Origin: Lachnospiraceae bacterium
GTDB lineage: Bacteria > Bacillota > Clostridia > Lachnospirales > Lachnospiraceae
Direction of reading: 5' to 3'
Assembly: GCA_017553035.1 (NCBI GenBank)
Contig: JAFZNE010000106.1
Coordinates: forward strand, 1 to 44,197
DNA: 44,197 nt
The notes under the pieces are model-generated. The model was not told the origin of the DNA. It was given only the letters and a program-made list of their open reading frames with translations, and searched no databases. Below, piece by piece: positions 18,470 to 37,632 of the stretch (position 1 is its first letter; every line of letters begins with the position of its first letter). The position numbers and the translations under genes are program-made.

Positions 18470-19741
18470 ATGAAAAGAAAGATTGTTTTACTGACAGCCT
18501 TTTTTATGATGCTGTTCCTCTTTGCAGGGATAAAAGCGGATATTGCCGCATCGGCCGAAGAAGAAGAGACCGAAAAGCCGGTGGAGATCGGCTCTACGGA
18601 CTATGAGAATCTGGTAATTAAGCTTTATCCTAATGACAATTCCATCATTTATATGTCAGTCGATAACCGCAAAACCTGGATAGAGGTTATCGGTGCTTCG
18701 GGAACCGAGGACGGGAACGGACGTCCTTATATTGAAATGGATATTTCATGGGCTTCCACTACATCAAATGTCAAGATTTATTTTAAGGGCAATAATGTCA
18801 AGACCGAGACAAGCTGTACACTGCCGAAACAGAATTCTTTCAAAGTTAAGTTCGACAAGGTTTCGGGTGATTTTACCATGACTGCCGATGCCGATATCAA
18901 GAATTTCTATTGGAGAAAGGCTTCCGACAGTACCTGGAATCTGGTACCGATGGATAAATCGAGTGAAGAGTACAAAGCATTTTTGAAACTGGTTGAAAGT
19001 CTCAGGTTCAAAGGAGCGAAGCTTGTTTTCAGAACCGGCCAGATTGCCGGAACCGATGCCGAAAACATGGGCTCGCGTCCGAGTAAGGAAGTGAATGTTT
19101 CGATATCCAAATTCAGTTCCGCACCTTCGATCAAACTGAATTACACCAAATTGACATTTAATACCAAAGCTACAATGGAATATACTACCGATATCAACAG
19201 CGGAGTATGGATTCCCTGCGAGAAGGGTATGGGACTCGACGTTATCGCGCCTCAGGTATTTGTGGGTGGAGCGGAGGCCGCAAAGCCCGCTACGATCTAT
19301 TTCAGGACCGCCCAGACAGAAAAGCGCGCGGCTTCGCTGATCAAGAGCATTACGATCCCTGCTCAGAAAGGCTCACCTACGATCGGTGAAAAGGGAAAAG
19401 ATGTTACTATTGCGGAGAATGAGACTACGGGAAAATTTGAACTGACATTTAACACCGCAAGTGCTGAAAATGCTTTCGAATACTGTGTTATCACTCCGAG
19501 TAAGACTTTTGAACTGACCAAAGCAAAATGGAAGACCATCAAAAAAGAAAAAACCGTAAATCTTACCCAGAAGAACGCTCCGGACGGTACGGTCATCTAT
19601 GTAAGGCTGAAGGGAACGGCAGCAAACGAGAAGAAGAATATTGAAGAACGGCTGCCCTCGGCATACGCTACATTTACGATCAAATGGAAGGAAAAAACCG
19701 AGACGAATGAAGGCAAGGCTGATAAGTCGGGGAAGAATTAA
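18470..19741 (+). CDS. Secreted protein of unknown function, second of a paralogous pair
   Basis: The 423-residue protein starts 11 bases after the previous stop, and its AAGGAGG overlaps that stop region, so the pair is co-translated from one operon. It has a signal peptide (residues 1 to about 30, ending IAASA). Its modules mirror the first protein: YENLVIKLYPNDNSIIYMSV, MDISWASTTSNVKIYFKG, FKVKFDKVSGDFTM, PSKEVNVSISK, ATIYFRTAQ and FEYCVITPSK. It lacks the long C-terminal region of the upstream protein and ends in a Lys-rich tail (KTETNEGKADKSGKN) that could hold it to the wall by charge. Function unknown. Confidence 0.75.
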   Translation: MKRKIVLLTAFFMMLFLFAGIKADIAASAEEEETEKPVEIGSTDYENLVIKLYPNDNSIIYMSVDNRKTWIEVIGASGTEDGNGRPYIEMDISWASTTSNVKIYFKGNNVKTETSCTLPKQNSFKVKFDKVSGDFTMTADADIKNFYWRKASDSTWNLVPMDKSSEEYKAFLKLVESLRFKGAKLVFRTGQIAGTDAENMGSRPSKEVNVSISKFSSAPSIKLNYTKLTFNTKATMEYTTDINSGVWIPCEKGMGLDVIAPQVFVGGAEAAKPATIYFRTAQTEKRAASLIKSITIPAQKGSPTIGEKGKDVTIAENETTGKFELTFNTASAENAFEYCVITPSKTFELTKAKWKTIKKEKTVNLTQKNAPDGTVIYVRLKGTAANEKKNIEERLPSAYATFTIKWKEKTETNEGKADKSGKN

Positions 19742-20511: not shown

Positions 20512-21429
20512 GTGAAAAAGATTGTTTGGTTGGTCATTGCGGCCATGATAATCATGTTTCTTGCGGGATGCGGTAAGGATCAGGATTCCGCAGATAACGG
20601 AGGAAATACCGGCAAGGTTACGCAACATGATGATAATAAGCAGAAGGATGCTGATAATAACAAAAAGAATGAGACAACACCCGAACCTACTCAGAAGCCT
20701 ACGGATGCACCTGTTTCCGATCCTGTGGATGATCCGGTGGATCCTGCTGATGATGAGTTCTACAGTGCGGGACACACATATGACGGAGTCTGGATGGGGA
20801 CCGGCTGTGTACTGCATATCGTGCCCGAGGGTGCAGCTGACGTTATAACAGCATTGTTTGAATATACCGATATGGAAACATTCGGAAGCTGGCATGAATA
20901 CTGGACAAACTTCTCGGAAGATGAGAATGCCTTCATCTGTCCGGAAGAAAGATTCTATTATTTCAACGGAGATATCGTTGTTGATAATATTGAAAACGAA
21001 AACCGTTTCGAAATCCGTGGCGAGAAGCTGTACTGGGTAAATGAAGATATGATGTTTGAAAAAGCTTCCGACGAAACCGATAATTTCGACCCCGCTGATT
21101 ATTTCTTCAGCGGAGCAAGTGATCCCGGAGATACAGGCAACAGGCTTACAGATGACGATGCCCTTATGGCGGTCAGAAATTATTGTCTTTTAGATAATCC
21201 CACTTTACAGGGTTATGTTGATTCGGGAGAATACAATATAGATTGGGATATCTTTACCAGCGAGGAAGACCAGATAGTTGTATGGTTCAGATCTTATACC
21301 GGAGCATTTAAATATTTCTATATTGATCCTGTTTCCGGTGATACATATGTTACAGAATTTGTTTCGGGAATAATGACCGAAGAACAGATGACCGATGAAA
21401 CCTTAAATGCATGGGATTATCTGAACTGA
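20512..21429 (+). CDS. Lipoprotein of unknown function
   Basis: The start is GTG at 20512, with AAGGAGG eight bases upstream. The 305-residue protein has a lipoprotein signal ending MFLAGCGKD. A charged linker with TPEPTQKPTDAPVSDPVDDP spans about residues 55-80. Two folded parts follow. The first (about 85-185) contains YDGVWMGTGCVLHIVPEGAA and looks like a small beta-barrel or lipocalin-type domain. The second (about 215-305) contains LMAVRNYCLLDNPTLQGYVD and VVWFRSYTGAFKYFYIDPVSGDTYV, which resembles small beta-rich lipoprotein domains. No catalytic motif was recognised. The gene is followed at once by a terminator, so it is probably monocistronic. It would sit on the outer membrane face. 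Confidence 0.8.
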   Translation: MKKIVWLVIAAMIIMFLAGCGKDQDSADNGGNTGKVTQHDDNKQKDADNNKKNETTPEPTQKPTDAPVSDPVDDPVDPADDEFYSAGHTYDGVWMGTGCVLHIVPEGAADVITALFEYTDMETFGSWHEYWTNFSEDENAFICPEERFYYFNGDIVVDNIENENRFEIRGEKLYWVNEDMMFEKASDETDNFDPADYFFSGASDPGDTGNRLTDDDALMAVRNYCLLDNPTLQGYVDSGEYNIDWDIFTSEEDQIVVWFRSYTGAFKYFYIDPVSGDTYVTEFVSGIMTEEQMTDETLNAWDYLN

Positions 21430-23901: not shown

Positions 23902-24603
23902 ATGGCTTACAACACTTATTCCGATCGGTTTACGATCGGATCTGAGGCAGAACTGGTCAGATTGATAGAGAAGCTCGGGTTCGTACCTTTCTTCGAAAAT
24001 GAGATAAAAGGTTTTTCGCTTGAAGAACATATCGGAAAAGGGTGTTGGTATACTGACGGAGATAACGGTTTCTGGCCCGCATGGGAATGGAAGGGGCCGG
24101 TGATCAATAAATCAGGGTGCGCCTACGGAAAATTTCTGTGGAATAAAGCGACATATATCAGTGCCGAATGGTTCCCCGATTTCGCGAATTACCGGAGGGA
24201 CGGCTATGACTTCGATGCCAGGTATGAGGACGGACTCGCATCCCGCGATGATAAATATTTATATGAATTACTGGATGCAAACGCTCCGATCCTGAGCAAA
24301 CCCCTGAAGGCTCTCGGCAATTATCGTAAAGGAGGGAAGAAGGGATTTGACTCGTCGATCATACGCCTGCAGAAACAGTGCTACGTGACGGTGAGCGATT
24401 TCAGGTATTCGGTTGACAAGTTCGGAAAAGAATACGGCTGGGGAATTGCGGAGTATTCCACTCCCGAAAAGTTTCTCGGGCAGGGTTTTACAGAAAATGT
24501 TTATAAAAGATCCCCGGAGGAATCTTATGCAAAACTGGTTAAACATTTTAAGAAGATCCTTCCGGATGCGGATGAAAATATCATAATAAAGATGCTTGGG
24601 TAG
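23902..24603 (+). CDS. AlkZ-related protein
   Basis: AAAGGAGG precedes the ATG. The 233-residue protein shows the blocks FWPAWEWKGPVI, GCAYGKFLWNKATYIS, EWFPDFANYRRDGYDFDARYEDGLA, KKGFDSSIIRLQKQCYVTVSDF and YGWGIAEYSTPEKFLG. These are the recurring blocks of the clostridial family annotated as AlkZ-related, named for similarity to the winged-helix DNA glycosylase AlkZ/YcaQ. This placement is from memory of family sequences. It lacks clear catalytic evidence and could be a DNA-binding or repair-associated protein. It is divergent from the ECF S-component gene. Confidence 0.75.
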   Translation: MAYNTYSDRFTIGSEAELVRLIEKLGFVPFFENEIKGFSLEEHIGKGCWYTDGDNGFWPAWEWKGPVINKSGCAYGKFLWNKATYISAEWFPDFANYRRDGYDFDARYEDGLASRDDKYLYELLDANAPILSKPLKALGNYRKGGKKGFDSSIIRLQKQCYVTVSDFRYSVDKFGKEYGWGIAEYSTPEKFLGQGFTENVYKRSPEESYAKLVKHFKKILPDADENIIIKMLG

Positions 24604-24655
24604 ACATCCGGCAATTGTTACAAAAGCCGCAGAGATTTCTGCCGGTACAAAACAG

Positions 24656-24684
24656 TTGAGTTTCTTGCTGAAGTGGCGTAGAAT
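24656..24684 (+). promoter_or_regulatory. Predicted promoter of the large lipoprotein gene
   Basis: TTGAGT (24656-24661) and TAGAAT (24679-24684) lie 17 bases apart, 44 bases before the ATG at 24728. Confidence 0.55.
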
Positions 24685-24727
24685 CTTATTTAATGATATT
24701 TTTGTTCTTATTAGGAGGAAAGAGAGA

Positions 24728-26803
24728 ATGAGAAAGAGATCTGCTTTTGCCCTGATCGTGATATTTGCGATGCTGATATCGGTTCTCGGAGGCTGTAAGA
24801 AGGACAATAACAAACCTGAGATCAATGCGCAGCCGATAACCGGAGGCGGAGATATTGTAACAACTGCTGAACCCACAGCCGAGCCGCAGCCCACAGCGAC
24901 TGATACACCGGCTGCAACTGCTGTTCCTACGGATGAACCCGCGGGCACACCCGAACCGACTTCCGCACCAACGGATATACCTTCAGATGTGCTGAGCGAC
25001 CCCGAAGCTTCGGCATGGCTTGGGCTGGATACTCCCGACGGTATCAAAGCAGCTAATTTCTATGACCTGTTCCTGAAGGGCGAGGCCAAAGTTACGGTCA
25101 ATGGGGATTATTCCTATCTCGAAAAGGGAGAATTCGATATCGGTGAGCTTACGAAATCCATGTCGGACAGGCTGAAACAGGATATGCTTCCGAGTGAACT
25201 TTCCAAGGCGGATTATGCGATCCTGGACTGCGGCATGGATAAATACCCGGAGCTTGCTCTCAAACTGGTCTATTCATCGGATTATGAGAATGCAACAGAA
25301 TACATCGTTATCAAATCGGTAGAAGGAAAACTGGTCGCACTTGACACATTCCAGGACTATTACAGAAGCTATGCGGGTATCAACCGTTTTGGACATGTCG
25401 CGAGCGGGGGCAGTTCGGGTGCATCTTCAGGACACTATGAGAGCCAGGTAATAACTGCAGCCGGTGAGACGGTGATCGACTATATCTATAATTCTTATAA
25501 TGGCCTGGTCAAGCCGGTGATACCTTCTTATGTCCTGCCGGCTGATATGTGGGAAGCTCTGTCCTCATTTGGGGTTGAGAACTTCGACGGTGAAGGTAAA
25601 TACGGCCTGGAGATCTGGAGTGTCAATGCAATGGGTTCGGATTATCCATCCGAAGAAGCATATAATGCCGGTTACAAAGAGTATTTACAAAAAGCCGTAT
25701 TTTCATTTTTCAATAATGAAGGTAGATACATCATGCCTGATGACAAATATGTCAAGGCTTGTCAGGCACTGGGTCTTAATATCTGCTCAAAAGGCGAGTG
25801 GACTGAAATGATCGACAGCCATAAAAAGATCGTCGGAATAACGAATGAGATCTTCGAAGGCGACGATCCGGAATGGTATACGATCAAAGGCCTTGCTGTA
25901 AGCGGTTCGACAGGCAATAGTGGCACCGGAACGGGCAATACGTCAGAGCCTCATCCTTATGCGGATTTCCTCGGGACCTGGTATATCATGAGAGGCGAAG
26001 TAGACGGCTGGGAATGGGATGCTTCGGAAGAACTGAACATACAATATCTTACATTTAACGAAGATTATACCGTAACACAAAGAATAGATTACAGTTTGGA
26101 TTATTCAAACTATAATGTCGGTACATGCCAGTATTCGGTCGATGAAGACGGAAACGGAACGGTTTATGTTACTTATGACGATGAAGGCAATGACGGCGAG
26201 TACTGGTTCACCATCAGCGATGACGGAAAGCTGATCCAGAGCGGAATAGTCGTATATGACGGTTCGATATATACAGGTACATATGCTGAGTACGAACGTA
26301 AGCCTTTCTGGGGAGACGGCGGTTACTATTATGAGGTTACCGCACCTGTGACTCCCGATGTTATAAAGAAATATATCAACGAAGCCAAGGACGATCAATG
26401 GCTGGTAGTTCTGGTCGATCCGGACGAATCGATCAAACAGGCATGTGATGAAGGCAACTGGGAAGTTGATGATGAAACCGGCAACCAGTGGATCAGCTGC
26501 CCCTGGAATAATCCGAAAGAGCTTATCATAGCAAATGCTTCGGATCGGAAAGTTGAGATCGAAGTACATGAACCTGCCTCCGATTATGATCCGAAATCTT
26601 CGGATTCCCCCGGCGATTGGGTACCCGGGCCGTTCTTCTACTGGGCAGAATTAAGACCCGGAGAACTGACCCGCATGATAGTTGATCTGCCGGATGCAGC
26701 CAGGGATGCGACAATGTGCCTCTACATGCAGTTTGAAGGGGATTCGACAGAGTATCAGATGAGGATTTATAAGTTCAACAGTTCATATTTTAAGTTTAAA
26801 TAA
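24728..26803 (+). CDS. Large lipoprotein with lipocalin-like domain, function unknown
   Basis: The ATG at 24728 has AGGAGG nine bases upstream and gives a lipoprotein signal ending VLGGCKKD; a longer reading frame reaches back over the AlkZ-related stop codon but would hide that signal. The 691-residue protein has a TP-rich linker (residues about 35-85). A central region (about 95-390) contains LDTPDGIKAANFYDLFLKGE and AEDIWEALS-like helices. About residues 410-520 form a lipocalin-like barrel starting ADFLGTWYIMRGEVDGWEWD. The C-terminal part (about 530-691) is beta-rich with YYEVTAPVTPDVIKKYINEA. No enzyme motif was recognised. It is monocistronic and would be anchored on the outer membrane face. 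Confidence 0.75.
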   Translation: MRKRSAFALIVIFAMLISVLGGCKKDNNKPEINAQPITGGGDIVTTAEPTAEPQPTATDTPAATAVPTDEPAGTPEPTSAPTDIPSDVLSDPEASAWLGLDTPDGIKAANFYDLFLKGEAKVTVNGDYSYLEKGEFDIGELTKSMSDRLKQDMLPSELSKADYAILDCGMDKYPELALKLVYSSDYENATEYIVIKSVEGKLVALDTFQDYYRSYAGINRFGHVASGGSSGASSGHYESQVITAAGETVIDYIYNSYNGLVKPVIPSYVLPADMWEALSSFGVENFDGEGKYGLEIWSVNAMGSDYPSEEAYNAGYKEYLQKAVFSFFNNEGRYIMPDDKYVKACQALGLNICSKGEWTEMIDSHKKIVGITNEIFEGDDPEWYTIKGLAVSGSTGNSGTGTGNTSEPHPYADFLGTWYIMRGEVDGWEWDASEELNIQYLTFNEDYTVTQRIDYSLDYSNYNVGTCQYSVDEDGNGTVYVTYDDEGNDGEYWFTISDDGKLIQSGIVVYDGSIYTGTYAEYERKPFWGDGGYYYEVTAPVTPDVIKKYINEAKDDQWLVVLVDPDESIKQACDEGNWEVDDETGNQWISCPWNNPKELIIANASDRKVEIEVHEPASDYDPKSSDSPGDWVPGPFFYWAELRPGELTRMIVDLPDAARDATMCLYMQFEGDSTEYQMRIYKFNSSYFKFK

Positions 26804-26850: not shown

Positions 26851-26879
26851 TTGACAAGTAATATCAAGAGTAATAAAAT
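26851..26879 (+). promoter_or_regulatory. Strong promoter of asnB with an A-tract UP element
   Basis: A perfect TTGACA (26851-26856) and TAAAAT (26874-26879) are 17 bases apart. The 40 bases before the -35 box are almost pure A and T (26819-26847), as in UP elements. Transcription would begin near 26886, only a few bases before the leader hairpin. Confidence 0.85.
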
Positions 26880-26891
26880 TCTCAACTATAA

Positions 26892-26937
26892 AAGACAAAG
26901 GCGTCTTAGAACCAGTTTCTAAGGCGCTTTTTCCTTT
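26892..26937 (+). promoter_or_regulatory. asnB leader: hexaloop antiterminator hairpin overlapping an intrinsic terminator
   Basis: AAGAC (26892-26896) and GTCTT (26903-26907) form a 5-bp stem with hexaloop AAAGGC, which has A at position 1 and G at position 4. The alternative fold GCGTCTTAGAA (26901-26911) with TTCTAAGGCGC (26917-26927) is an 11-bp terminator followed by TTTTT. The two share 26901-26907 and cannot form together. The loop pattern is that of ANTAR-protein targets. The element lies between the promoter and the asnB ribosome binding site, so it would act by attenuation. Confidence 0.75.
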
Positions 26938-26975
26938 TTGGGGGTCTTTTAATCGGTAACCCGGAGGTGGTTTGT

Positions 26976-28640
26976 ATGTGTTCGATATTAGGCTATTGCG
27001 GAAAAGACGCGGATTATGACAGCTTCAAGGAGGCTCTTTTGAAAACGGCTTCAAGAGGACCCGATGCAAGCAGGATCATAAATACAGGTAACGGCCGGCT
27101 CGGATTCAACAGGCTTTCGATCATGGGACTTACCGATGCGGGAATGCAGCCGTTCGTATACGGCGGGAAGAAGACACTGATGATCGAACCGGAAAAGAAC
27201 GGACCGGAAGAAGGAGTACCTGAGATCAGCCTTCCCGAAGAAGCCGAGCTCACTATAGTATGTAACGGTGAGATCTACGGTTTCAGACCGATCAAGGAAG
27301 AACTGATCGGCAGAGGGTATTCATTTATAAGCGATTCGGACTGTGAAATACTTCCCGCGATGTACAAAGAATACGGAACGGCAATGTTCGGAATGCTGGA
27401 TGCAGAATATGCCCTGATAATGTACGACGTGAAAAAGGACATGTATATTGCGGCCCGCGATCCGATAGGCATCAGGCCTCTGTATTACGGAAAGAGCGCG
27501 AGCGGTGCATATGTATTCGCGTCGGAACCGAAAAATCTGCTGAAGCTGGTAGATAAAGTATTTCCGTTCCCTCCCGGACATTATTTCCTGAACGGTGAGT
27601 TTAAGAAATATCGTGATATGTCGGATGTAACGGCTGTTCGTTATGATGATATGGAAACGATCGCACATAACATTCACGATCTTTTGACTGAAGGCGTAAG
27701 GAAGAGACTTGATTCCGATACGCCGGTAGGATTCCTGCTTTCGGGCGGACTTGATTCGTCACTGGTATGCGGGATCGCGGCAAAAGAACTTGATAAGCCG
27801 CTTGAGACCTGGGCGATAGGAATGGACATCGATGCGATCGATCTGAAATATGCCAGAGAGGTTGCAGACTACATAAATTCGAACCACCATGAAGTGATCA
27901 TTTCCAAGAGTGATATCCTTGAGGCTCTCGAGACGGTGATCGAAGCGCTCGGAACATATGATATCACGACGATCAGGGCATCACTCGGAATGTATCTGGT
28001 ATGTAAGGCGATACATGAGCAGTCGGATCTGAGGGTTATCATGACAGGTGAGATCTCAGATGAGATCTTCGGATACAAATATACGGACTTTGCTCCCAAT
28101 GCGGAGGAATTCCAGAAGGAAGCAGAGAAGAGGATCAGGGAACTTCATATGTATGATGTGCTCAGAGCGGACAGATGTATCAGCGTGAACTCGCTCGAAG
28201 CCAGGGTTCCCTTCGGTGATCTGGCATTTGTTGAGTATTGCATGTCGGTCGATCCGGAGAAGAAGCTGAACAAGTACAATAAAGGCAAATATCTTCTAAG
28301 ACATGCATTTGAGGAAGATAAGCTGATCCCCGACAGCATCCTGTGGCGTGAGAAAGCTGCATTTTCCGACGCGGTCGGACATTCGCTGAAGGACGATCTG
28401 GTAGAATTTGCGGAATCGCAGTATACCGATGCGGAGTTCGAGGAAGGCATCAAGAAATATGAGCATGCGAAACCTTTTACGAAGGAATCGCTGCTGTACA
28501 GAGATATATTTGAAAAGTATTATCCGGGGCAGTCGGAAATGGTAGTTGACTTCTGGATGCCCAATAAGAACTGGGAAGGCTGCAATGTGACCGATCCGTC
28601 GGCAAGGGTGCTTTCGAATTACGGTGCAAGCGGAACTTAA
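26976..28640 (+). CDS. asnB: Glutamine-hydrolysing asparagine synthetase B
   Basis: The start is the ATG at 26976, so that MCSILGYCG puts the catalytic Cys at position 2, as N-terminal nucleophile amidotransferases require; GGAGG is eight bases upstream. An in-frame GTG at 26967 would bury it. The 554-residue protein has the class II glutaminase domain ([34 protein letters not shown]) and the synthetase domain with the PP-loop [11 protein letters not shown] and [12 protein letters not shown]. It makes asparagine from aspartate, glutamine and ATP in the cytosol. It heads the nitrogen island, probably co-transcribed with glnN, and is under the leader attenuator. Confidence 0.95.
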
Positions 28641-28688
28641 AAAAGGCAATGGCGTCTTGGAGATAACCCCCGAGGTGCCTTTTTCTTT
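28641..28688 (+). promoter_or_regulatory. glnN leader: hexaloop hairpin overlapping a terminator
   Basis: The element starts directly after the asnB stop. AAGGC (28643-28647) and GTCTT (28654-28658) enclose hexaloop AATGGC. The competing terminator pairs AAAAGGCA (28641-28648) with TGCCTTTT (28676-28683) around a smaller CTTGG/CCGAG stem, and T-rich sequence follows. The arms overlap at 28643-28648. No promoter is visible between asnB and the element, so it should act on read-through transcripts. Confidence 0.75.
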
Positions 28689-28740
28689 AGGATCAGAAAA
28701 AAATAAAGAGAATAAAATAAAGAAAGAGAGGAAAGAGGTT

Positions 28741-30849
28741 ATGGAAAAAACAAGTGTATCAAGTGTACCCGAGCTGTTTGGCTCAATGGTGTTTGATGAC
28801 AGGGTGATGAGGGCAAGACTGTCGGCAAAGGTTTACGAATCACTGAGGAAGACGATCGACGAGGATGCAAGACTCGATGAAACCGTTGCGGAGGCGGTAG
28901 CAAAGGAGATGCGTGACTGGGCCGTAGAGAACGGCGCTACACATTTTACACATTGGTTCCAGCCCCTGACAGGTGTTACGGCTGAGAAACATGACAGTTT
29001 CATAACTCCTTCACCCGACGGCGGCGTGATCATGGAGTTTTCTGGCAAGGAGCTGATCAAGGGTGAGCCCGATGCTTCATCATTCCCTTCGGGAGGCTTA
29101 AGAGCTACATTTGAAGCCAGAGGTTATACAGCATGGGATCCTACGTCTTATGCATTTATCAAGGATCATACCCTTTGTATACCGACAGCGTTCTGCTCAT
29201 ATTCAGGAGAAGCACTCGATAAGAAAACTCCTCTCTTAAGATCAATGCAGGCGCTCAGCCGTCAGGCCAAGCGTATCCTGAAACTGTTCGGAAAAGAAGT
29301 TAAATATGTAAGGACGAGCGTAGGTCCCGAGCAGGAATATTTCCTGATCGACGAGGCAATGTACCAGAAGCGTCCGGACCTTGTATATACCGGAAGGACC
29401 CTGTTCGGTGCGATGCCGCCTAAAGGACAGGAACTCGATGACCACTATTTCGGTGTTATCAAGCCCAGAGTAAATGCATTTATGGAGGATCTGAACAACG
29501 AGCTGTGGAAGCTCGGGATCCTTGCCAAGACAGAGCACAACGAAGTTGCTCCTGCACAGCATGAGCTGGCACCCATTTATTCGACGACCAATGTGGCTAC
29601 CGATAACAACCAGCTTACGATGGAGATCATGCAGAAGGTGGCAAGACGCCACGGTCTGGTATGCCTCCTTCATGAGAAGCCTTTTGCGGGAGTAAACGGT
29701 TCAGGTAAACACAACAACTGGTCAATGGCAACCGATACCGGAATGAACCTGCTCTCACCCGGTGAGACACCTCATGAGAATGCACAATTCCTGCTGTTCC
29801 TGTGTGCGGTAATCCAAGCAGTCGATGATTACCAGGATCTGCTGAGATTGTCAGTTGCCACGGCAGGCAACGATCACAGACTCGGAGCAAACGAAGCACC
29901 GCCCGCAATCATCTCGGTATTCCTCGGCGATGAGCTTTCGGCTATCTTAGAGGCTATCAAGACCGATACACCTTATCAGGGCAAGGAAAAAGAAGTTATC
30001 AAACTCGGTGTTCACACACTTCCGAGATTTTCAAGAGATACAACGGACAGAAACCGTACATCGCCGTTCGCGTTTACCGGTAATAAATTCGAGTTCAGAT
30101 CACTCGGTTCATCGAACAGTATCGCATGCTGCAACATCATGTTGAATGCGGCAGTTGCGGAGAGCCTGAAGCAGTACGCAGACAGGCTTGAAGGCGCCGA
30201 GAATTTTGAGAGCGCACTTCATGATCTGATCAAGGAAACCATTACCAAGCATGAGAGAATACTCTTCAACGGCAACGGTTATGGTGAGGAATGGATCGAA
30301 GAGGCAACGAAGGTTAGAGGCCTTTCGAACCTGAAGACCACTGCGGATGCGATGCCTCACCTGCTTGATGAGAAGAACATGAAGATGCTGATGGCTCACA
30401 AGGTATTTACCGAATCCGAACTTCATTCAAGATGCGAGATAATGCTCGAGAACTATTGCAAGACGGTAAATATTGAAGGACATACCATGGTAGATATGGT
30501 AAGAAAGAGCTATCTGCCGGCTATCGAAGGTTATCTGTTCGATCTGGCCCAGGCTACTTCATACATGAAATCGGTAAGCGAGAATGTAAAATGCAAGTAC
30601 GAAACCTCAACGATCGAAAGACTTTCGGAGCTCACCGACAACATTCTCGAGAATGTCGAAGCACTTGAAGGATCGCTCGAAAACCTGAAGGGCTACAGCG
30701 AGATCATCGAGACATCGAAGGCTGTAAGAGATGATCTTATCCCGAAGATGGATGCATTGAGAAAGAACGTTGATGAAGCCGAGATGCTGACAAGCGAGAA
30801 GTGCTGGCCTGTACCGAGCTACGGACAGCTGCTGTTCAGCGTATATTAA
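28741..30849 (+). CDS. glnN: Type III glutamine synthetase
   Basis: The ATG at 28741 follows GAGAGGAAAGAGG. The upstream in-frame extension runs through the terminator element and is not coding. The 702-residue length is that of GSIII. Family blocks include [70 protein letters not shown] and [17 protein letters not shown], which supply the ATP, ammonium and glutamate sites. It is a dodecameric cytosolic enzyme that makes glutamine from glutamate, ammonium and ATP. Its neighbours asnB, amt and gltBD use or supply the same metabolites. The leader hairpin suggests nitrogen-dependent attenuation. Confidence 0.96.
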
Positions 30850-30877
30850 GTATTGCTCTTTATTTGATCTAAAAAGT

Positions 30878-30936
30878 CACCACAATGGCGTGGAGATCCG
30901 CAAAACCGGCGGGAACATGCTGTTGTGGTGTTTTTT
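30878..30936 (+). promoter_or_regulatory. amt leader: hexaloop hairpin overlapping a terminator
   Basis: CCAC (30880-30883) and GTGG (30890-30893) enclose hexaloop AATGGC. The competing fold pairs CACCACAA (30878-30885) with TTGTGGTG (30923-30930), followed by TTTTTT. Both use 30880-30885. The stem bases differ from the other three leaders but still pair, while the loop is the same. No promoter is seen between the glnN stop and this element. Confidence 0.75.
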
Positions 30937-31007
30937 ATATCTGACCGGACCTTTACGGGATGGCAGACAGGGAATTTGGAAAGGTATTAAAGGGGAAATC
31001 GCAAAAC

Positions 31008-31046
31008 ATATGTATTGAGGAGAATACTCCGGAAATTCATACATAT
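31008..31046 (+). other. Second stem-loop in the amt leader
   Basis: ATATGTAT (31008-31015) pairs with ATACATAT (31039-31046) around a smaller GGAG-AATA-CTCC hairpin. It lies between the attenuator and the ribosome binding site. No T tract follows, so it is not a terminator; it could affect mRNA stability or translation. Confidence 0.45.
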
Positions 31047-31087
31047 TCATGGATTTGCGGACAAAAAAGGAAAAGGGGGAAATGAAT

Positions 31088-32860
31088 ATGATAGAAGAAA
31101 TCAAAAGTTTGATAAGTGACGAAGTGTTTTCGGTGTGGTTTTTGATCGGCGCAGCCCTCGTGTTCTGGATGCAGGCGGGCTTCGCAATGTGTGAAACAGG
31201 TTTTACAAGGGCTAAAAATGCCGGTAACATCATAATGAAGAACCTGATGGATTTCTGTATCGGTACCGTAATGTGGTTTATCTGCGGAGCATCGCTCATG
31301 CTGGGACCGAACATCCTGAAAGGTTTCGCGGGCGGATTCAGCTTTGATGTATTTACATCATATTCAAATTTTGATTATTCCGCATTCGTATTTAACCTTG
31401 TATTCTGCGCGACCACAGCTACCATAGTTTCCGGTTCCATGGCCGAGCGTACCAAGTTTTCAAGTTATTGTATCTATTCGGCGATCATCTCCGCAGTTAT
31501 CTATCCTATCGAAGCTCACTGGACATGGGGCGGCGGATTCCTTGTTGAATGGGGCTTCCACGATTATGCAGGTTCAAACTGTATCCATATGGTCGGCGGT
31601 ATCTGCGCATTTATCGGTGCCTGGATGCTCGGACCGAGGCTTGGTAAATTCGAACGTGACAAGAAGGGTAAAGTTACAAAAGTTAATGCATTCCCCGGTC
31701 ACAACCTTGTTATAGCGGCTCTCGGTGTATTCATCCTGTGGCTTGGATGGTACGGATTCAACGGTGCCGCAGCTACCGATGTTCCCACAATGGGTTCTGT
31801 ATTTCTTACAACTACCGTGGCTCCAGCAGTTGCAACAGTTGTCTGTATGATATTTACCTGGTGCAAATACGGCAAGCCCGATGTATCGATGTGTCTTAAC
31901 GCTTCTCTTGCAGGTCTTGTTGCGATCACCGCTCCCTGCGACGTTACGGATTGCGCAGGTGCAGCAATCATCGGTGCCGTATCCGGTCTGCTCGTAGTAT
32001 TCGGCGTATGGTTCAATGATAATGTTACTCATGTTGACGATCCTGTTGGTGCTGTTGCGGTTCATATGTTCAACGGTATCTGGGGAACGATCGCTGTAGG
32101 TCTGTTTGCAACCGAGACAGCTCCCGGATTTGCGGTAGCAGGGATCAAGGAAGGCCTTTTCTACGGCGGCGGATTCGAACAGCTCGGAAAACAGTGTGCA
32201 GGTATGCTTGTAACCGCATTATGGACCGTAGTTACGATCTATCTTGCGTTCCTGCTCATAAAGAAGACCGTTGGCCTGAGAGTCAATGAAGAAGAGGAGA
32301 TCACAGGTCTTGATGCTACCGAGCATGGTCTTCCTTCTGCATATGCGGGCTTCTCGATCATGGATATTTCCAACACCATGACCATGAGTGTCAATGAAAA
32401 CACCAACCTCGGAAATGAAAGCTACGAGGAGGCTTCCGAAGCCAAGAAGAAAGCGGCGGTACCTGTTTACAAAGATCCTTCCGGAGCTTTGCCGGAGTTT
32501 GACAGCGGCATTTCAAAGGTTGTTATCATCGCCAAGCTGTCAAGGTATGAAGTATTGAAGCGCGCGATGAACGATCTGGGTGTTACCGGTATGACGGTAA
32601 CTCAGGTTATGGGATGCGGTATCCAGAAGGGTGCCGGCGAGAAATACCGTGGTGTTGAGATCGATATGACGCTGCTTCCCAAGGTTAAGCTTGAAGTCGT
32701 AGTCAGTGCGATCCCTGTTGACGATGTTATCGAGGCAGCCAAGAAAGCCCTGTATACCGGTCATATCGGCGATGGCAAGATCTTCGTATATCCTGTCAGC
32801 CGTGTTGTCAAGATCAGGACCGGCGAGGAGAATTTCGAGGCTCTGCAGGACGTAGAGTAA
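31088..32860 (+). CDS. Ammonium transporter with fused C-terminal PII (GlnB) domain
   Basis: The ATG at 31088 is best placed after the GGGGGA run at 31075-31080; starts at 31049 and 31082 are too close or lack a site. Residues 1 to about 420 form an Amt channel: MQAGFAMCETGFTRAKNAGN, and the two pore histidines in CIHMVGGICAF and AVHMFNGIWGT. After a linker, residues 477-591 are a complete PII protein with KVVIIAKLSRYEVLKRAM, the T-loop tyrosine in AGEKYRGVEI (residue 521) and YTGHIGDGKIFVYPVSRVVK. PII proteins gate Amt channels in response to ATP, ADP and 2-oxoglutarate, so this fusion would carry its own regulator. It lies between glnN and gltB. Confidence 0.93.
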   Translation: MIEEIKSLISDEVFSVWFLIGAALVFWMQAGFAMCETGFTRAKNAGNIIMKNLMDFCIGTVMWFICGASLMLGPNILKGFAGGFSFDVFTSYSNFDYSAFVFNLVFCATTATIVSGSMAERTKFSSYCIYSAIISAVIYPIEAHWTWGGGFLVEWGFHDYAGSNCIHMVGGICAFIGAWMLGPRLGKFERDKKGKVTKVNAFPGHNLVIAALGVFILWLGWYGFNGAAATDVPTMGSVFLTTTVAPAVATVVCMIFTWCKYGKPDVSMCLNASLAGLVAITAPCDVTDCAGAAIIGAVSGLLVVFGVWFNDNVTHVDDPVGAVAVHMFNGIWGTIAVGLFATETAPGFAVAGIKEGLFYGGGFEQLGKQCAGMLVTALWTVVTIYLAFLLIKKTVGLRVNEEEEITGLDATEHGLPSAYAGFSIMDISNTMTMSVNENTNLGNESYEEASEAKKKAAVPVYKDPSGALPEFDSGISKVVIIAKLSRYEVLKRAMNDLGVTGMTVTQVMGCGIQKGAGEKYRGVEIDMTLLPKVKLEVVVSAIPVDDVIEAAKKALYTGHIGDGKIFVYPVSRVVKIRTGEENFEALQDVE

Positions 32861-32882
32861 AGTATCGTGCGAATAATAACAG

Positions 32883-32927
32883 GCTATCCGCAATAAAATG
32901 ATAATGAGTGTTGACATGACGGATAGC
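32883..32927. repeat. 8-bp inverted repeat around the gltB promoter -35 region
   Basis: GCTATCCG (32883-32890) and CGGATAGC (32920-32927) are perfect inverted copies 29 bases apart. The second copy lies in the promoter spacer. It may be an operator for looping or dimer binding, or the end of amt; no regulator was identified. Confidence 0.4.
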
Positions 32928-32939
32928 AAGCTATATAAT
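32911..32939 (+). promoter_or_regulatory. Full-consensus promoter of gltBD
   Basis: TTGACA (32911-32916) and TATAAT (32934-32939), both perfect, lie exactly 17 bases apart. Transcription would start near 32946, only about seven bases before the leader hairpin. Such a consensus promoter would fire strongly unless restrained, which fits downstream attenuation. Confidence 0.9.
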
Positions 32940-32952
32940 AGGTCTTTGAAAA

Positions 32953-33002
32953 AAGGCAAAGGCGTCTTGGAGTTATTTCCGGGACTCTTTGCCTCTTTTT
33001 TT
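32953..33002 (+). promoter_or_regulatory. gltB leader: hexaloop hairpin overlapping a terminator
   Basis: AAGGC (32953-32957) and GTCTT (32964-32968) enclose hexaloop AAAGGC. The competing terminator pairs GGCAAAG (32955-32961) with CTTTGCC (32987-32993) around an 8-bp inner stem (GTCTTGGA with TCCGGGAC), and T-rich sequence follows to 33002. The folds share 32955-32968. Confidence 0.8.
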
Positions 33003-33057
33003 GCGATAAATGAAATATATTTTAAAAAGTGAACTGTCCAAGCCGGAGGTTTTAGAA

Positions 33058-36000
33058 ATGTCTGATTTATTTAAAAAGATCGAGGAGAAAGGTCTGTATT
33101 CGCCGCAGTTTGAGCATGACAACTGTGGCATCGGCGCGATCATAGATGTTGAAGGGAAGCCAAGCCACAAGATAGTGGATGACGCGCTTTCCATTGTTGA
33201 GAACCTTGAACACAGGGCCGGTAAAGATGCCGAAGGCAAGACCGGTGACGGTGTCGGTATCCTGACACAGATACCTCACAAATTCTTTACGAGAGTACTT
33301 GCAAAGGAAGGCATCACCCTGCCCAAGGCCAGACAGTACGGTGTGGGAATGTTCTTCTTTCCGCAGAATGATCTGGATATGCGTCAGGCAAAATCAATGT
33401 TCGAGATCATTACCAGGAAAGCTGGCCTGAACATAATCACCTGGCGTAAGGTCGCCTCTGTGGGCGAGGTACTCGGAACCGCGGCCAGAGAGTGCATGCC
33501 CGATATCTACCAGGTATTCATCGAAAGGCCGGAAGGTGTCGGTGAGGACCTGGATTTTGACCGCATGCTCTATGTGGTGCGCAGGGAATTTGAGCAGAGC
33601 TGTGTAAATACTTATGTTCCTTCATTATCCTGCCGTACGATCGTGTACAAGGGCATGTTCCTTGTGGGACAGCTGCGCTCGTTCTATAAGGACCTTACAG
33701 ATCCCGATTATGAGTCCGCGATCGCAATGGTACATTCGAGATTCTCGACCAATACCAATCCGAGCTGGAACAGGGCTCATCCCAACCGTCTGATAGTACA
33801 CAACGGCGAGATCAACACGATAAAAGGCAATATGGATAAAATGCTTGCCCGTGAAGAAACTATGCATACTTCGATGTTCTCCGAAGAAGACATGACAAAG
33901 GTCCTTCCGGTAATACATGCGAGCGGCTCCGATTCGGCAAGCTTTGACAATACACTGGAATTCCTGATGATGAGCGGCCTTGACCTGCCTCTGGCCGCGA
34001 TGCTGATGATCCCCGAGCCCTGGGCTCACAATGAGACTCTGTCTCAGGAGGAAAGAGATTTTTACCAGTATTATGCTACGATGATGGAGCCCTGGGACGG
34101 TCCCGCGTCGATCCTTTTCTCGGACGGCGACGTTATGGGCGCGATCCTCGACAGGAACGGACTTCGTCCTTCAAGATATGTCGTGACCGACGACCAAAGA
34201 CTGATCCTTTCTTCGGAAGTGGGCGTACTCCCGATCGAAGAGAGTCATATCATCAAAAAGGAAAGGCTTCATCCGGGCAAGATCCTGCTTGTCGATACAA
34301 AGGAAAAACGTATCTTCTACGATGAGGAGATCAAGGAAAAGTATGCTCTGAGCGAGCCTTTCGGAGAGTGGCTCGACAGCAACCTGCTGCAGCTGTCGGA
34401 TCTGAAGATCCCCAACAGGAAGGTGCCGCAGCTTACCGGAGAGCACAGAAGCCGTCTTCAGAAGGCTTTCGGCTATACCTGGGAAGATTATCACGACGGT
34501 ATCCTGAATATGGCTCTTTCGGGAAGCGAGAGCATCGGCTCGATGGGTATCGATACGCCGATAGCAGTCCTGTCGGGCAAATACCAGCCGCTGTTTTACT
34601 ATTTCAAGCAGCAGTTCGCACAGGTAACCAATCCTCCGATCGATGCGCAGCGCGAGGAGATCGTTACCTCAAGGACCGTATATGTGGGAAAAAACGGCAA
34701 TCTGCTCGAACAGAAGCCCGAGAACTGCCATGTTCTGAAGATAAACAATCCCATACTTACCGATCTCGACCTGCTTAAGATCGAAAATATGAAGCGTGAC
34801 GGCTTCAAGGTTTCGAAGGTTTCAACCCTGTATTACAAGAGCACTCCGATGAAAATGGTGCTCAAGCATCTGTTCCTTGAGGTTGACAAGGCATATAAGG
34901 AAGGCGCGAACATCCTGATCCTTTCGGACAGGGGTGTTGACGAGAACCATGTGGCGATCCCTTCGCTGCTCGCGGTTGCCGCGGTTCACAAGCATCTTGT
35001 CGATACACGTAAATGTACGGCCATGTCGCTGATCCTTGAATCGGGCGAGCCCAGGCAGGTTCATCATTTCGCCACACTGCTCGGATTCGGTGCATCGGCT
35101 GTAAATCCTTATCTTGCACATGCGACGATCGCCCAGCTGATCGACGAGGAACTTCTCGATAAGGATTACTACGCCGCGGTGGATGATTTTGATAACGCGG
35201 TGCTGTTCGGGATCGTCAAGATCGCGTCAAAAATGGGTATTTCAACGATCCAGTCATATCAGGGCAGCAAGATCTTCGAGGCGATAGGAATCTCGCCCGA
35301 AGTTATTGATGAATATTTTACCGGAACCGTCAGCCGTATCGGAGGCATCTCGCTCGAGGATATAGGAAAGGCAGCCGACGCCCAGCACAGTCTTGCATTC
35401 GATCCGCTCGGACTTGAGAGCGATCTTGAGTTCACGGCGCTCGGACGTCACAAGATGAGAAGTCAGGGCGAGAATCACAGATACAATCCGCAGACCATCC
35501 ATGCGCTGCAGACCGCGACAAGAGAAGGCGACTATAACCGTTTCAGGGAATACACGGAGCTTGCGGACGCCGAAAGAACAGGGTATTTAAGAAGTCTGCT
35601 CGATTTTAATTATGCCGGCAAGCCCGTTCCGATCGAAGAGGTTGAGGACGAGGCGTCGATAGTCAAACGCTTCAAGACCGGTGCGATGTCCTACGGTTCG
35701 ATCTCCGAGGAAGCACACGAGACGCTTGCGATCGCAATGAACCGTCTTCACGGCAAATCAAACAGCGGCGAGGGCGGCGAGAGCGACGAAAGACTTGAAT
35801 CCGCGGGGACCGATAATGACAGAAGTTCGGCGATCAAACAGGTTGCGAGCGGTAGATTCGGCGTCACGAGCCGTTATCTCGTGAGCGCAAAAGAGATACA
35901 GATAAAAATGGCGCAGGGCGCGAAGCCCGGTGAAGGCGGACATCTGCCCGGAAAGAAGGTTTATCCCTGGATCGCCAAGACAAGACATTCAACACCCGGC

Positions 36001-37632
36001 GTGAGCCTTATCTCACCGCCTCCTCATCACGATATTTACTCGATAGAGGATCTTGCACAGCTTATTTACGATCTTAAAAATGCAAATAAAGACGCCAGGA
36101 TATCGGTCAAGCTTGTTTCGGAAGCGGGCGTCGGAACCGTTGCGGCGGGCGTTGCCAAGGCCGGAGCGGGAGTTATCCTGATCTCGGGCTACGACGGAGG
36201 AACAGGCGCGGCACCGCTTTCATCGATCCACAATGCGGGACTTCCCTGGGAGCTCGGACTTGCGGAAACCCATCAGACTCTGATCGCAAACGGCCTCAGA
36301 AACAAGGTTGTCATCGAAACGGACGGCAAGCTTATGACCGGCCGTGATGTGGCCATAGCGGCCATCCTTGGCGCGGAAGAGTTCGGATTTGCGACGGCTC
36401 CGCTCATCACGCTCGGCTGCGTTATGATGAGAGCATGCCAGTCGGATACCTGTCCTATGGGCGTTGCGACACAGAACCCCGAACTGAGAAAGAGATTTGC
36501 GGGCAAGCCTGAGTATGTTGAGAATTTCATGATTTTTATCGCAAGACAGCTTCGCGAGATCATGGCTTCTCTCGGAGTCAGAAAGGTGGAGGAGCTCGTC
36601 GGCAGGACCGATCTGCTGAAGGAAAAGGCTTCAGGCAGCTCGGCGGATACAACACCGGACCGTGGCAGGAACAAACTCGATCTCTCGGCGATACTGATGG
36701 ATATGTCTTCCACACCGCGTGACAAGGCTGTATTCGGACCTCAGCATCTGTTTGATTTCCATCTGGAAAATACAATGGATGAAAAGGTACTGTTAAGATC
36801 AAGGAAGATACAGAAATCGCTGAAAGACGGGTCGGCATCGAAGATCTCGGTTGAACTCAAGAATACCGACAGAACCTTCGGTACACTGCTCGGAGCCGAG
36901 ATAACAAGAAAGTACCATGAGGGTCTCGCGGAAGATACGATCACGATCGACTGTACGGGAGCGGGCGGACAGAGCTTCGGAGCATTTATCCCGAAGGGTC
37001 TTACGCTCGATCTTACAGGAGACGCCAACGATTATTTCGGAAAGGGCTTATCGGGCGGCAAGCTCGTTGTCCGCGCGCCCAAAGAGGCCAAATACGATCC
37101 TTCCGAGAATATAATCATCGGTAATGTTGCTCTGTACGGTGCTACTTCCGGACAGGCGTATATCGCGGGAATGGCCGGCGAACGTTTCGCGATCAGAAAT
37201 TCGGGCGCTGTTGCGGTCGTTGAAGGCGTCGGAGAGCACGGATGCGAGTATATGACCGGCGGATGCGTTGTGATCCTCGGTTCCACGGGTAAGAACTTCG
37301 CGGCAGGAATGAGCGGCGGTGTTGCATATGTACTCGATATGGATAACAAACTGTACAAGAATCTGAACAAACAGCTTGTAAATATGGAGACGGTCGAGCA
37401 TAAGGCGGATCTTGACGAACTGAAGAAACTGATCGCGGCTCATGTCGAAAATACCGGCTCAAAGAAGGGAAAGGAAATACTGGAGGATTTCGATTCCTAT
37501 ATCCCTCATTTTAAAAAGATCATACCGGTTGATTACAAGGAAATGTTGAAGCTGATCGCAAAGGCGGAGGAGGAGGGAATGGATCCCGAAACCGCCAGGA
37601 TAGAAGCGTTCAGAACATTTATCGGAGGTTGA
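33058..37632 (+). CDS. gltB: Glutamate synthase large subunit (GOGAT alpha)
   Basis: The ATG at 33058 has GGAGG eight bases upstream; a longer frame opens at 33010, at the end of the leader terminator, and is not used. The 1524-residue protein has the glutaminase domain with propeptide cleavage before Cys23 in EHDNCGIGAI, a central domain, the FMN-binding synthase domain with ISGYDGGTGAAPLSSI, the 3Fe-4S cysteines in CVMMRACQSDTCPMG, and the C-terminal GXGXG beta-helix. It takes the amide of glutamine onto 2-oxoglutarate, giving two glutamates. gltD follows three bases after its stop, and the strong promoter and attenuator lie before it. Confidence 0.96.
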   Translation: MSDLFKKIEEKGLYSPQFEHDNCGIGAIIDVEGKPSHKIVDDALSIVENLEHRAGKDAEGKTGDGVGILTQIPHKFFTRVLAKEGITLPKARQYGVGMFFFPQNDLDMRQAKSMFEIITRKAGLNIITWRKVASVGEVLGTAARECMPDIYQVFIERPEGVGEDLDFDRMLYVVRREFEQSCVNTYVPSLSCRTIVYKGMFLVGQLRSFYKDLTDPDYESAIAMVHSRFSTNTNPSWNRAHPNRLIVHNGEINTIKGNMDKMLAREETMHTSMFSEEDMTKVLPVIHASGSDSASFDNTLEFLMMSGLDLPLAAMLMIPEPWAHNETLSQEERDFYQYYATMMEPWDGPASILFSDGDVMGAILDRNGLRPSRYVVTDDQRLILSSEVGVLPIEESHIIKKERLHPGKILLVDTKEKRIFYDEEIKEKYALSEPFGEWLDSNLLQLSDLKIPNRKVPQLTGEHRSRLQKAFGYTWEDYHDGILNMALSGSESIGSMGIDTPIAVLSGKYQPLFYYFKQQFAQVTNPPIDAQREEIVTSRTVYVGKNGNLLEQKPENCHVLKINNPILTDLDLLKIENMKRDGFKVSKVSTLYYKSTPMKMVLKHLFLEVDKAYKEGANILILSDRGVDENHVAIPSLLAVAAVHKHLVDTRKCTAMSLILESGEPRQVHHFATLLGFGASAVNPYLAHATIAQLIDEELLDKDYYAAVDDFDNAVLFGIVKIASKMGISTIQSYQGSKIFEAIGISPEVIDEYFTGTVSRIGGISLEDIGKAADAQHSLAFDPLGLESDLEFTALGRHKMRSQGENHRYNPQTIHALQTATREGDYNRFREYTELADAERTGYLRSLLDFNYAGKPVPIEEVEDEASIVKRFKTGAMSYGSISEEAHETLAIAMNRLHGKSNSGEGGESDERLESAGTDNDRSSAIKQVASGRFGVTSRYLVSAKEIQIKMAQGAKPGEGGHLPGKKVYPWIAKTRHSTPGVSLISPPPHHDIYSIEDLAQLIYDLKNANKDARISVKLVSEAGVGTVAAGVAKAGAGVILISGYDGGTGAAPLSSIHNAGLPWELGLAETHQTLIANGLRNKVVIETDGKLMTGRDVAIAAILGAEEFGFATAPLITLGCVMMRACQSDTCPMGVATQNPELRKRFAGKPEYVENFMIFIARQLREIMASLGVRKVEELVGRTDLLKEKASGSSADTTPDRGRNKLDLSAILMDMSSTPRDKAVFGPQHLFDFHLENTMDEKVLLRSRKIQKSLKDGSASKISVELKNTDRTFGTLLGAEITRKYHEGLAEDTITIDCTGAGGQSFGAFIPKGLTLDLTGDANDYFGKGLSGGKLVVRAPKEAKYDPSENIIIGNVALYGATSGQAYIAGMAGERFAIRNSGAVAVVEGVGEHGCEYMTGGCVVILGSTGKNFAAGMSGGVAYVLDMDNKLYKNLNKQLVNMETVEHKADLDELKKLIAAHVENTGSKKGKEILEDFDSYIPHFKKIIPVDYKEMLKLIAKAEEEGMDPETARIEAFRTFIGG

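Follow-up and report, generated by a model that had tools for sequence, protein, structure and literature searches.

Four nitrogen genes of a Lachnospiraceae bacterium (asnB, glnN, amt-PII and gltB; assembly GCA_017553035.1, contig JAFZNE010000106.1) each carry in their leader a small hairpin with an AAWGGC hexaloop that overlaps an intrinsic terminator, all on the plus strand. We analysed the whole stretch of 44,197 nucleotides (nt) in which they lie, hereafter the window, together with relatives of the source bacterium, which inhabit the gut and rumen. From sequence comparison, these elements very probably act as transcription attenuators, with a NitR-type ANTAR protein exerting control through one hexaloop. 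The single hexaloop appears to be what is new: the second hairpin of known ANTAR targets, P1, occurs only at chance level, and the remaining hairpin lies near the predicted transcript start. Our searches of open-access papers turned up no description of ANTAR attenuators with a single hexaloop. The features are as follows, where R1 is a covariance model built from relatives.

26851..26879, + strand: asnB promoter read from the sequence (−35 TTGACA at 26851-26856, 17-nt spacer, −10 TAAAAT at 26874-26879)
~26886, + strand: asnB transcript start predicted from the promoter
26892..26907, + strand: asnB hexaloop hairpin AAGAC-AAAGGC-GTCTT, putative antiterminator (R1 E 4.3e-8; sequence in the R1 seed)
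26897..26934, + strand: asnB intrinsic terminator, mutually exclusive with the hexaloop hairpin (fold −19.0 kcal/mol, z −5.3)
26976..28640, + strand: asnB, asparagine synthase with a glutamine amidotransferase domain (PF00733, PF13537)
28643..28658, + strand: glnN hexaloop hairpin AAGGC-AATGGC-GTCTT (R1 E 6.1e-9; sequence in the R1 seed)
28651..28686, + strand: glnN intrinsic terminator (fold −14.2 kcal/mol, z −1.6)
28741..30849, + strand: glnN, glutamine synthetase type III, GSIII (PF12437, PF00120, PF18318)
30880..30893, + strand: amt-PII hexaloop hairpin CCAC-AATGGC-GTGG (other geometry, missed by R1)
30878..30936, + strand: amt-PII intrinsic terminator (fold −30.2 kcal/mol, z −4.6)
31082..32860, + strand: amt-PII, fusion of an ammonium transporter and a P-II domain (PF00909, PF00543)
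32911..32939, + strand: gltB promoter read from the sequence (−35 TTGACA at 32911-32916, 17-nt spacer, −10 TATAAT at 32934-32939)
~32946, + strand: gltB transcript start predicted from the promoter
32953..32968, + strand: gltB hexaloop hairpin AAGGC-AAAGGC-GTCTT (R1 E 3.9e-4; outside the R1 seed)
32954..33001, + strand: gltB intrinsic terminator (fold −25.1 kcal/mol, z −5.6)
33058..37632, + strand: gltB, glutamate synthase large subunit (PF00310, PF04898, PF01645, PF01493)

Two start codons are our own choice: that of asnB, an ATG that places Cys at residue 2, and that of gltB, the ATG at 33058 behind GGAGG in an open frame that starts at 33010. No promoter was seen adjoining the glnN and amt elements, which both sit between genes of the cluster.

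An initial annotation, made from the letters of this DNA, had reported the four hairpins and read them as antiterminators. All four are where it placed them, with stems of 4–5 base pairs (bp), and a scan for AAWGGC loops on stems of 4 bp or more that overlap a terminator finds 4 elements in the window and 0 in 40 dinucleotide shuffles; the identical scan with six other loop patterns gives 0 each. Any A..G.. loop yields 5 elements (mean 0.1 in 10 shuffles), the fifth of which (minus strand, 19764) proves to be a long, perfect palindrome. Overlap with the terminator, which the annotation placed in the terminator's 5′ arm throughout, holds for all four, with a different geometry at amt-PII, where the terminator 5′ arm takes in the hairpin's 5′ arm and loop. 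The full leaders all fold as terminators (−14.2 to −30.2 kcal/mol), that of glnN being the weakest (18/200 shuffles fold equally well). In asnB, glnN and gltB, the first 28–29 nt of the leader adopt the hexaloop hairpin (−3.9, −3.4 and −5.0 kcal/mol, respectively), which alone is no more stable than shuffles. Since the short 5′ pieces form the hairpin and the full leaders the terminator, the hairpin is able to form early, and unless it is held the terminator should then prevail. At E ≤ 1, none of the four leaders matches an Rfam 15 family; in eight further loci searched at E ≤ 0.1 there was one weak match, to RF02980 (L190, minus strand, 279-366), below the gathering score and away from the hexaloop element, which lies near the middle of that locus.

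The same arrangement recurs widely in relatives. We searched with the Amt-PII protein and took the best 80 of 583 loci, mostly titled Lachnospiraceae, which with the window make 81 sequences. In these, an AANGGC hairpin overlaps a terminator 95 times, versus 0, 0, 2, 0, 1, 1, 0, 0 and 0 for nine control loops in the same sequences. Of the 95 elements, 91 immediately precede one of the four genes (Amt-PII 42, GlnN 22, AsnB 14, GltB 13; 4 unassigned). Where at least 300 nt of upstream sequence was available, a strict-form element precedes Amt-PII in 39/73 cases, GlnN in 20/38, AsnB in 14/29 and GltB in 12/30, and GltD and AspB in 0/8 and 0/2; about half of the orthologues of the four genes are therefore without one. 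In the main geometry (72/95) the 3′ half of the loop and the 3′ arm of the hairpin make up the terminator 5′ arm, and in the other (23/95, including the CCAC type of amt) this arm is formed by the hairpin 5′ arm and the sequence preceding it. Before glnN or amt, four loci (L313 in genome G186, L021, L023 and L028) have hexaloop-terminator elements in tandem, spaced 54 to 90 nt from each other.

Stem covariation, which the annotation had combined with loop constancy as strong evidence for a selected structure, is thin among the four leaders alone and becomes strong only across relatives. Of the 72 elements of main geometry, 66 were listed as distinct and no longer than 62 nt. The seed of R1 is an alignment of 62 of them, all selected for a stem of 4 bp or more; L061, L064, L070 and L077, whose spacers are long or irregular, were left out. 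Both sides change in 4/5 stem pairs, giving 69 double-changed cells compared to a shuffled mean of 17.0 and a covariation score of 0.638 compared to 0.255; the alternative terminator helix covaries as well (0.592 versus 0.230). Because the scan required the letters AA.GGC and a pairing stem, loop constancy and the percentage of paired positions are true by construction and are not evidence, which lies instead in the control loops, the pair types and the closing C-G pair, fixed in 62/62 rows and not a requirement of the scan. These data also bear on whether the elements are plain terminators of the upstream genes, with conserved sequence and no switch. The glnN element, immediately 3′ of the asnB stop codon, is placed as such a terminator would be, but those of asnB and gltB stand directly behind promoter-like sequence, and a plain terminator needs neither an AANGGC loop nor a covarying 5′-side stem (95 elements versus 0–2 for control loops), so that we regard this explanation as extremely unlikely.

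In the published definition, an ANTAR target consists of two hexaloops, P1 and P2, and deletion of P1 abolished induction (Ramesh et al. 2012, PMC3369931); a commentary (PMC3369936) and a survey of actinobacteria (PMC8164766) use the same definition, as far as the accessible text of these papers goes. A hexaloop with A at position 1 and G at position 4 is the published recognition feature (PMC3369931, PMC8934654). According to the available part of Walshe et al. 2022 (PMC8934654), an EutV dimer contacts one hexaloop, P1 is proposed to be a recruitment hairpin, and single-hexaloop sites were foreseen only where polymerase imposes no time limit. The elements described here share with canonical dual-hexaloop targets the A1/G4 hexaloop, a stem of at least 3 bp, the terminator overlap and an ANTAR gene in the genome, and P1 is absent. 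The annotation did not mention P1; in the 60 nt upstream of the hairpins of the four window leaders, A..G.. hexaloops on stems of 4 bp or more are absent, and the sole 3-bp candidate near them lies inside the coding end of asnB. In a second set from the family (89 loci, 86 after three without a clean element were dropped), P1 was found at 0/86 with stems of at least 4 bp (shuffle mean 1.2) and at 7/86 with at least 3 bp (6.8, background), and in the first set at 4/95 (1.8, range 0–5) and 12/95 (9.2, again background). In the second set, 63/86 elements have a −35/−10 promoter from which transcription is predicted to begin shortly ahead of the stem (median distance 3 nt, and 44 nt to the end of the first TTTT); six shifted control windows show this placement in 0–3 of 84–86. 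With only one hexaloop, the elements are not canonical dual-hairpin targets.

One might still suppose that they are canonical targets whose P1 lies upstream and is short, odd or missed. The three characterised systems (EutV, NasR and AmiR) and the predicted targets in print all have P1 and P2 in the accessible text of PMC3369931 and PMC8164766, and a few of our own loci point the same way. The 39 operon-internal elements of the first set lie at the upper edge of expectation, P1 occurring in 3 with stems of 4 bp or more (shuffle mean 1.1, range 0–3) and in 6 with stems of 3 bp or more (shuffle mean 3.3, range 0–7). A class-level check of 29 loci (the best element per genome, six from the family, one without a hairpin near the match) flagged an upstream hairpin in four: a second full element in G310, one inside the promoter in G340, a plausible case in G151, and G215. 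As a positive control we looked for dual elements beside 60 ANTAR genes, which gave only two weak candidates, and used instead the glnN leader of G051 (L315, minus strand, near 472-498), a dual-hexaloop leader in a genome in which no ANTAR protein and no class-I glutamine synthetase (GSI) was found. However, P1 stays at shuffle level in both sets and the predicted start leaves a median of only 3 nt before the hairpin in 63/86, which makes canonical targets with a hidden P1 very improbable.

The single-hexaloop elements track ANTAR genes. Of 150 genomes of the family, 136 have an ANTAR gene, and R1 matches at E ≤ 0.01 (R1 E-values are rough) occur in 110 of these 136 and 0 of the other 14 (Fisher 1.3e-9, a statistic that ignores relatedness, including that among the 14). 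Across 196 genomes of the class, 76 match at the same threshold, 66/105 with ANTAR versus 10/91 without, and the counts are 54/105 versus 3/91 at E ≤ 0.001 and 44/105 versus 0/91 at E ≤ 1e-4; as the seed was chosen by loop and stem and shares its family with the test genomes, these rates are not independent of it. The proposal of one ANTAR-type nitrogen regulon thus gains support, with only one hexaloop per leader, and the covariance search put forward as its test did return homologous leaders in related genomes. All 14 ANTAR-less family genomes retain glnN; a permissive rescan of them gave a best R1 E of 0.056, at noise level, and direct inspection of glnN leaders found hexaloops in 1/14 (G051, dual) and in 3/8 leaders from four ANTAR-positive genomes. 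Of the ten class genomes with an R1 match and no ANTAR, seven were inspected (G238, G307 and G322 were left out): the matches in G166, G163, G199 and G153 are apparently chance, no such hairpin standing before a query-set gene, and G186, G182 and G250, the last possibly dual, carry real elements.

NitR-type ANTAR regulators are encoded next to glnA, the class-I glutamine synthetase gene. The source genome (2.5 Mb, 84% complete) yielded one ANTAR protein, of 196 amino acids (aa), on contig C40, its gene 19 bp behind glnA (PF03861 E 6e-15, 55.2 bits against a cut-off of 27.3). The ANTAR gene for which the annotation had proposed looking nearby is therefore in the same genome but on another contig, with none among the 18 window frames searched with Pfam. 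Among the family loci examined (that of the source genome and the 30 best-scoring), glnA lies directly upstream of the ANTAR gene in 29/29 that could be resolved (not L112 and L117), and the same order holds in 14 of the 30 best-scoring class loci. An element precedes glnA in each of four glnA-ANTAR operons fetched. The EutV RNA contacts Lys149, Glu160 and Met172 are invariant in the 29 resolved proteins, and at other positions Tyr164 is replaced by His in 25 and Phe in 4, Arg168 by Gln in 27 and Glu in 2, and Arg175 by Gly in 24 (residue roles as given in the accessible part of PMC8934654, numbering offset matched by us). The receiver-like half, which in the source protein scores below the Pfam cut-off, is without the phospho-acceptor Asp (the source protein reads DLIIVNSPLP, and the majority type is likewise without it), so control of NitR by phosphorylation appears unlikely. 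Response regulators with two consecutive ANTAR domains were seen in two further genomes (L360:370-1122, +, in G304; L362:1460-2182, +, in G321).

A number of observations weigh against control by NitR through one hexaloop, in addition to the limits on the R1 statistics, the published need for two hexaloops and the operon-internal P1 count given above. The glnA-nitR leader of the source genome has no such hairpin, and its NitR departs from EutV at Arg142, Lys143 (Arg), Tyr164 (His), Arg168, Arg175 and Arg177. R1 has no match at E ≤ 0.01 in 26/136 ANTAR-positive family genomes, although on a permissive rescan 20 of the 26 reach E ≤ 0.2 and 3 reach E ≤ 0.01. Conversely, G186, G250, G182 and G051 have elements before glnN and no detected ANTAR; a relaxed search (E ≤ 10) of 24 ANTAR-less genomes including these four gave nothing over the cut-off, and for G250 and G182 an assembly gap is our guess, since their congeners have ANTAR. 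These four genomes, and the fact that NitR is linked to the RNA through sequence, would fit a reading in which the antiterminators serve another RNA-binding protein and nitR merely accompanies it. Yet the loop follows the published ANTAR rule, the elements track ANTAR genes in the family (110/136 versus 0/14) and across the class, and the accessible text of PMC6316151 ties NitR to antitermination of glutamine synthetase (GS) and glutamate synthase (GOGAT) genes; we accordingly see little chance of another protein being responsible.

Under control by NitR, the leader would by default fold as an intrinsic terminator and, where it has its own promoter, transcription would end after ~45 nt. Active NitR would grip the AANGGC hexaloop as it leaves the polymerase and keep the small hairpin folded, and the held hairpin would block the terminator arm, allowing read-through into asnB, glnN, amt-PII and gltB. 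Elsewhere in the source genome, NitR would likewise open carA, gdhA and a PPDK-like gene, the three that R1 adds to the window four to give at least seven predicted targets (the name PPDK-like is our reading of the sequence; the 400 residues searched had no Pfam match). A seventh R1 match in this genome (minus strand, E 0.96) is the asnB terminator in mirror image.

In the second family set, 62/86 elements precede a gene matching the nitrogen query set (GSIII 31, Amt 14, AsnB 7, GltB 4, PPDK-like 2, GSI 2, GdhA 1, CarA 1). The next genes of the other 24 include six that we read as purF and two as pyrG, and Pfam, run on one candidate of each, assigned a glutamine amidotransferase domain to the former and a CTP synthase N-terminus to the latter; the remainder range from transporters, an aminotransferase and ATP-grasp proteins to cases with no clear gene. 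Novelty had been suggested for the extension to asnB and Amt-PII. Predicted ANTAR targets already include glutamine and glutamate synthases, ammonium transporters and P-II in the accessible part of Ramesh et al. 2012 (PMC3369931), so at most asnB, carA, gdhA, purF and pyrG may be new. The closest precedent is the NitR of Clostridium saccharobutylicum, likewise an ANTAR protein, to which antitermination of GS/GOGAT genes is attributed when nitrogen is limiting (PMC6316151, in the part available); in contrast, asnB, GSIII, Amt-PII, carA and gdhA are also predicted targets here, and the leader of the source glnA-nitR is without the hairpin. Compared to the dual-hexaloop RNAs of EutV, NasR and AmiR (PMC3369931, as accessible), which share the short covarying stem and the nitrogen theme, there is here a single hairpin, at the predicted transcript 5′ end when promoter-linked, with no P1 and no linker; its closing pair is C-G in all rows of both sets, with AANGG of the loop being a search condition.

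How the nitrogen or glutamine state might reach NitR is suggested by its gene context. We compared 25 genomes among G001–G030 that have both ANTAR and an R1 match with the 14 ANTAR-negative genomes, and found GSI (E ≤ 1e-40) in 24/25 versus 0/14 (Fisher 9.9e-10), while GSIII is present in 14/14 of the latter; the same pattern would arise if one operon had been lost as a whole, which makes this co-occurrence suggestive only. In the exception, G014, the sole ANTAR domain is a C-terminal extension of CTP synthase:

L326:828-2573, − strand: CTP synthase-ANTAR fusion of G014, 582 aa (CTP_synth_N, GATase, ANTAR at residues 530-575)

The fusion gene, known from this one genome, is divergent from a glnN carrying the hexaloop element, and together with the glutamine-themed targets it suggests that the ANTAR protein takes its cue from glutamine-using enzymes. 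As a tentative model, which may well prove wrong, such enzymes could act as NitR sensors, freeing the ANTAR protein onto a glutamine-economy regulon through one-hairpin attenuators at the transcript start. Depending on glutamine, GSI, kept beside GSIII, would retain the pseudo-receiver ANTAR protein or set it free, and in G014 fusion to CTP synthase, a glutamine amidotransferase, would make the sensor link direct; the freed protein would switch GSIII, Amt-PII, GOGAT, glutamate dehydrogenase (GDH), asnB, carA, purF and pyrG. Control of an ANTAR protein by a ligand-binding partner is known from AmiC-AmiR, where AmiR has a pseudo-receiver like NitR here (PMC3369936, PMC8934654, in the parts available), and from NasS-NasT. 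Unlike AmiC and NasS, the proposed partner GSI is a catalytic enzyme, to which gene order and joint absence point. In Bacillus subtilis, glutamine synthetase binds and controls the nitrogen regulator TnrA (PMC6316151, as accessible); TnrA binds DNA, whereas NitR would act on RNA.

Elsewhere in the window, a single frame (4708-6489, +) matches the MatE transporter family and also has a HATPase_c_2 domain at its C-terminus, to our knowledge an unusual pairing. The frames at 15993-18455, 18470-19738, 20512-21426 and 24596-26800 (821, 423, 305 and 735 aa) have no Pfam match at E ≤ 1e-5.

In the published model two hexaloops are needed and the first recruits the protein in time. The one-hexaloop attenuators described here span many genera, many of them apparently starting at the transcript 5′ end, and make the question of why there are two directly testable. 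They also outline a nitrogen and glutamine regulon of common gut and rumen bacteria, for which the glutamine-using enzymes would offer a testable NitR sensor.

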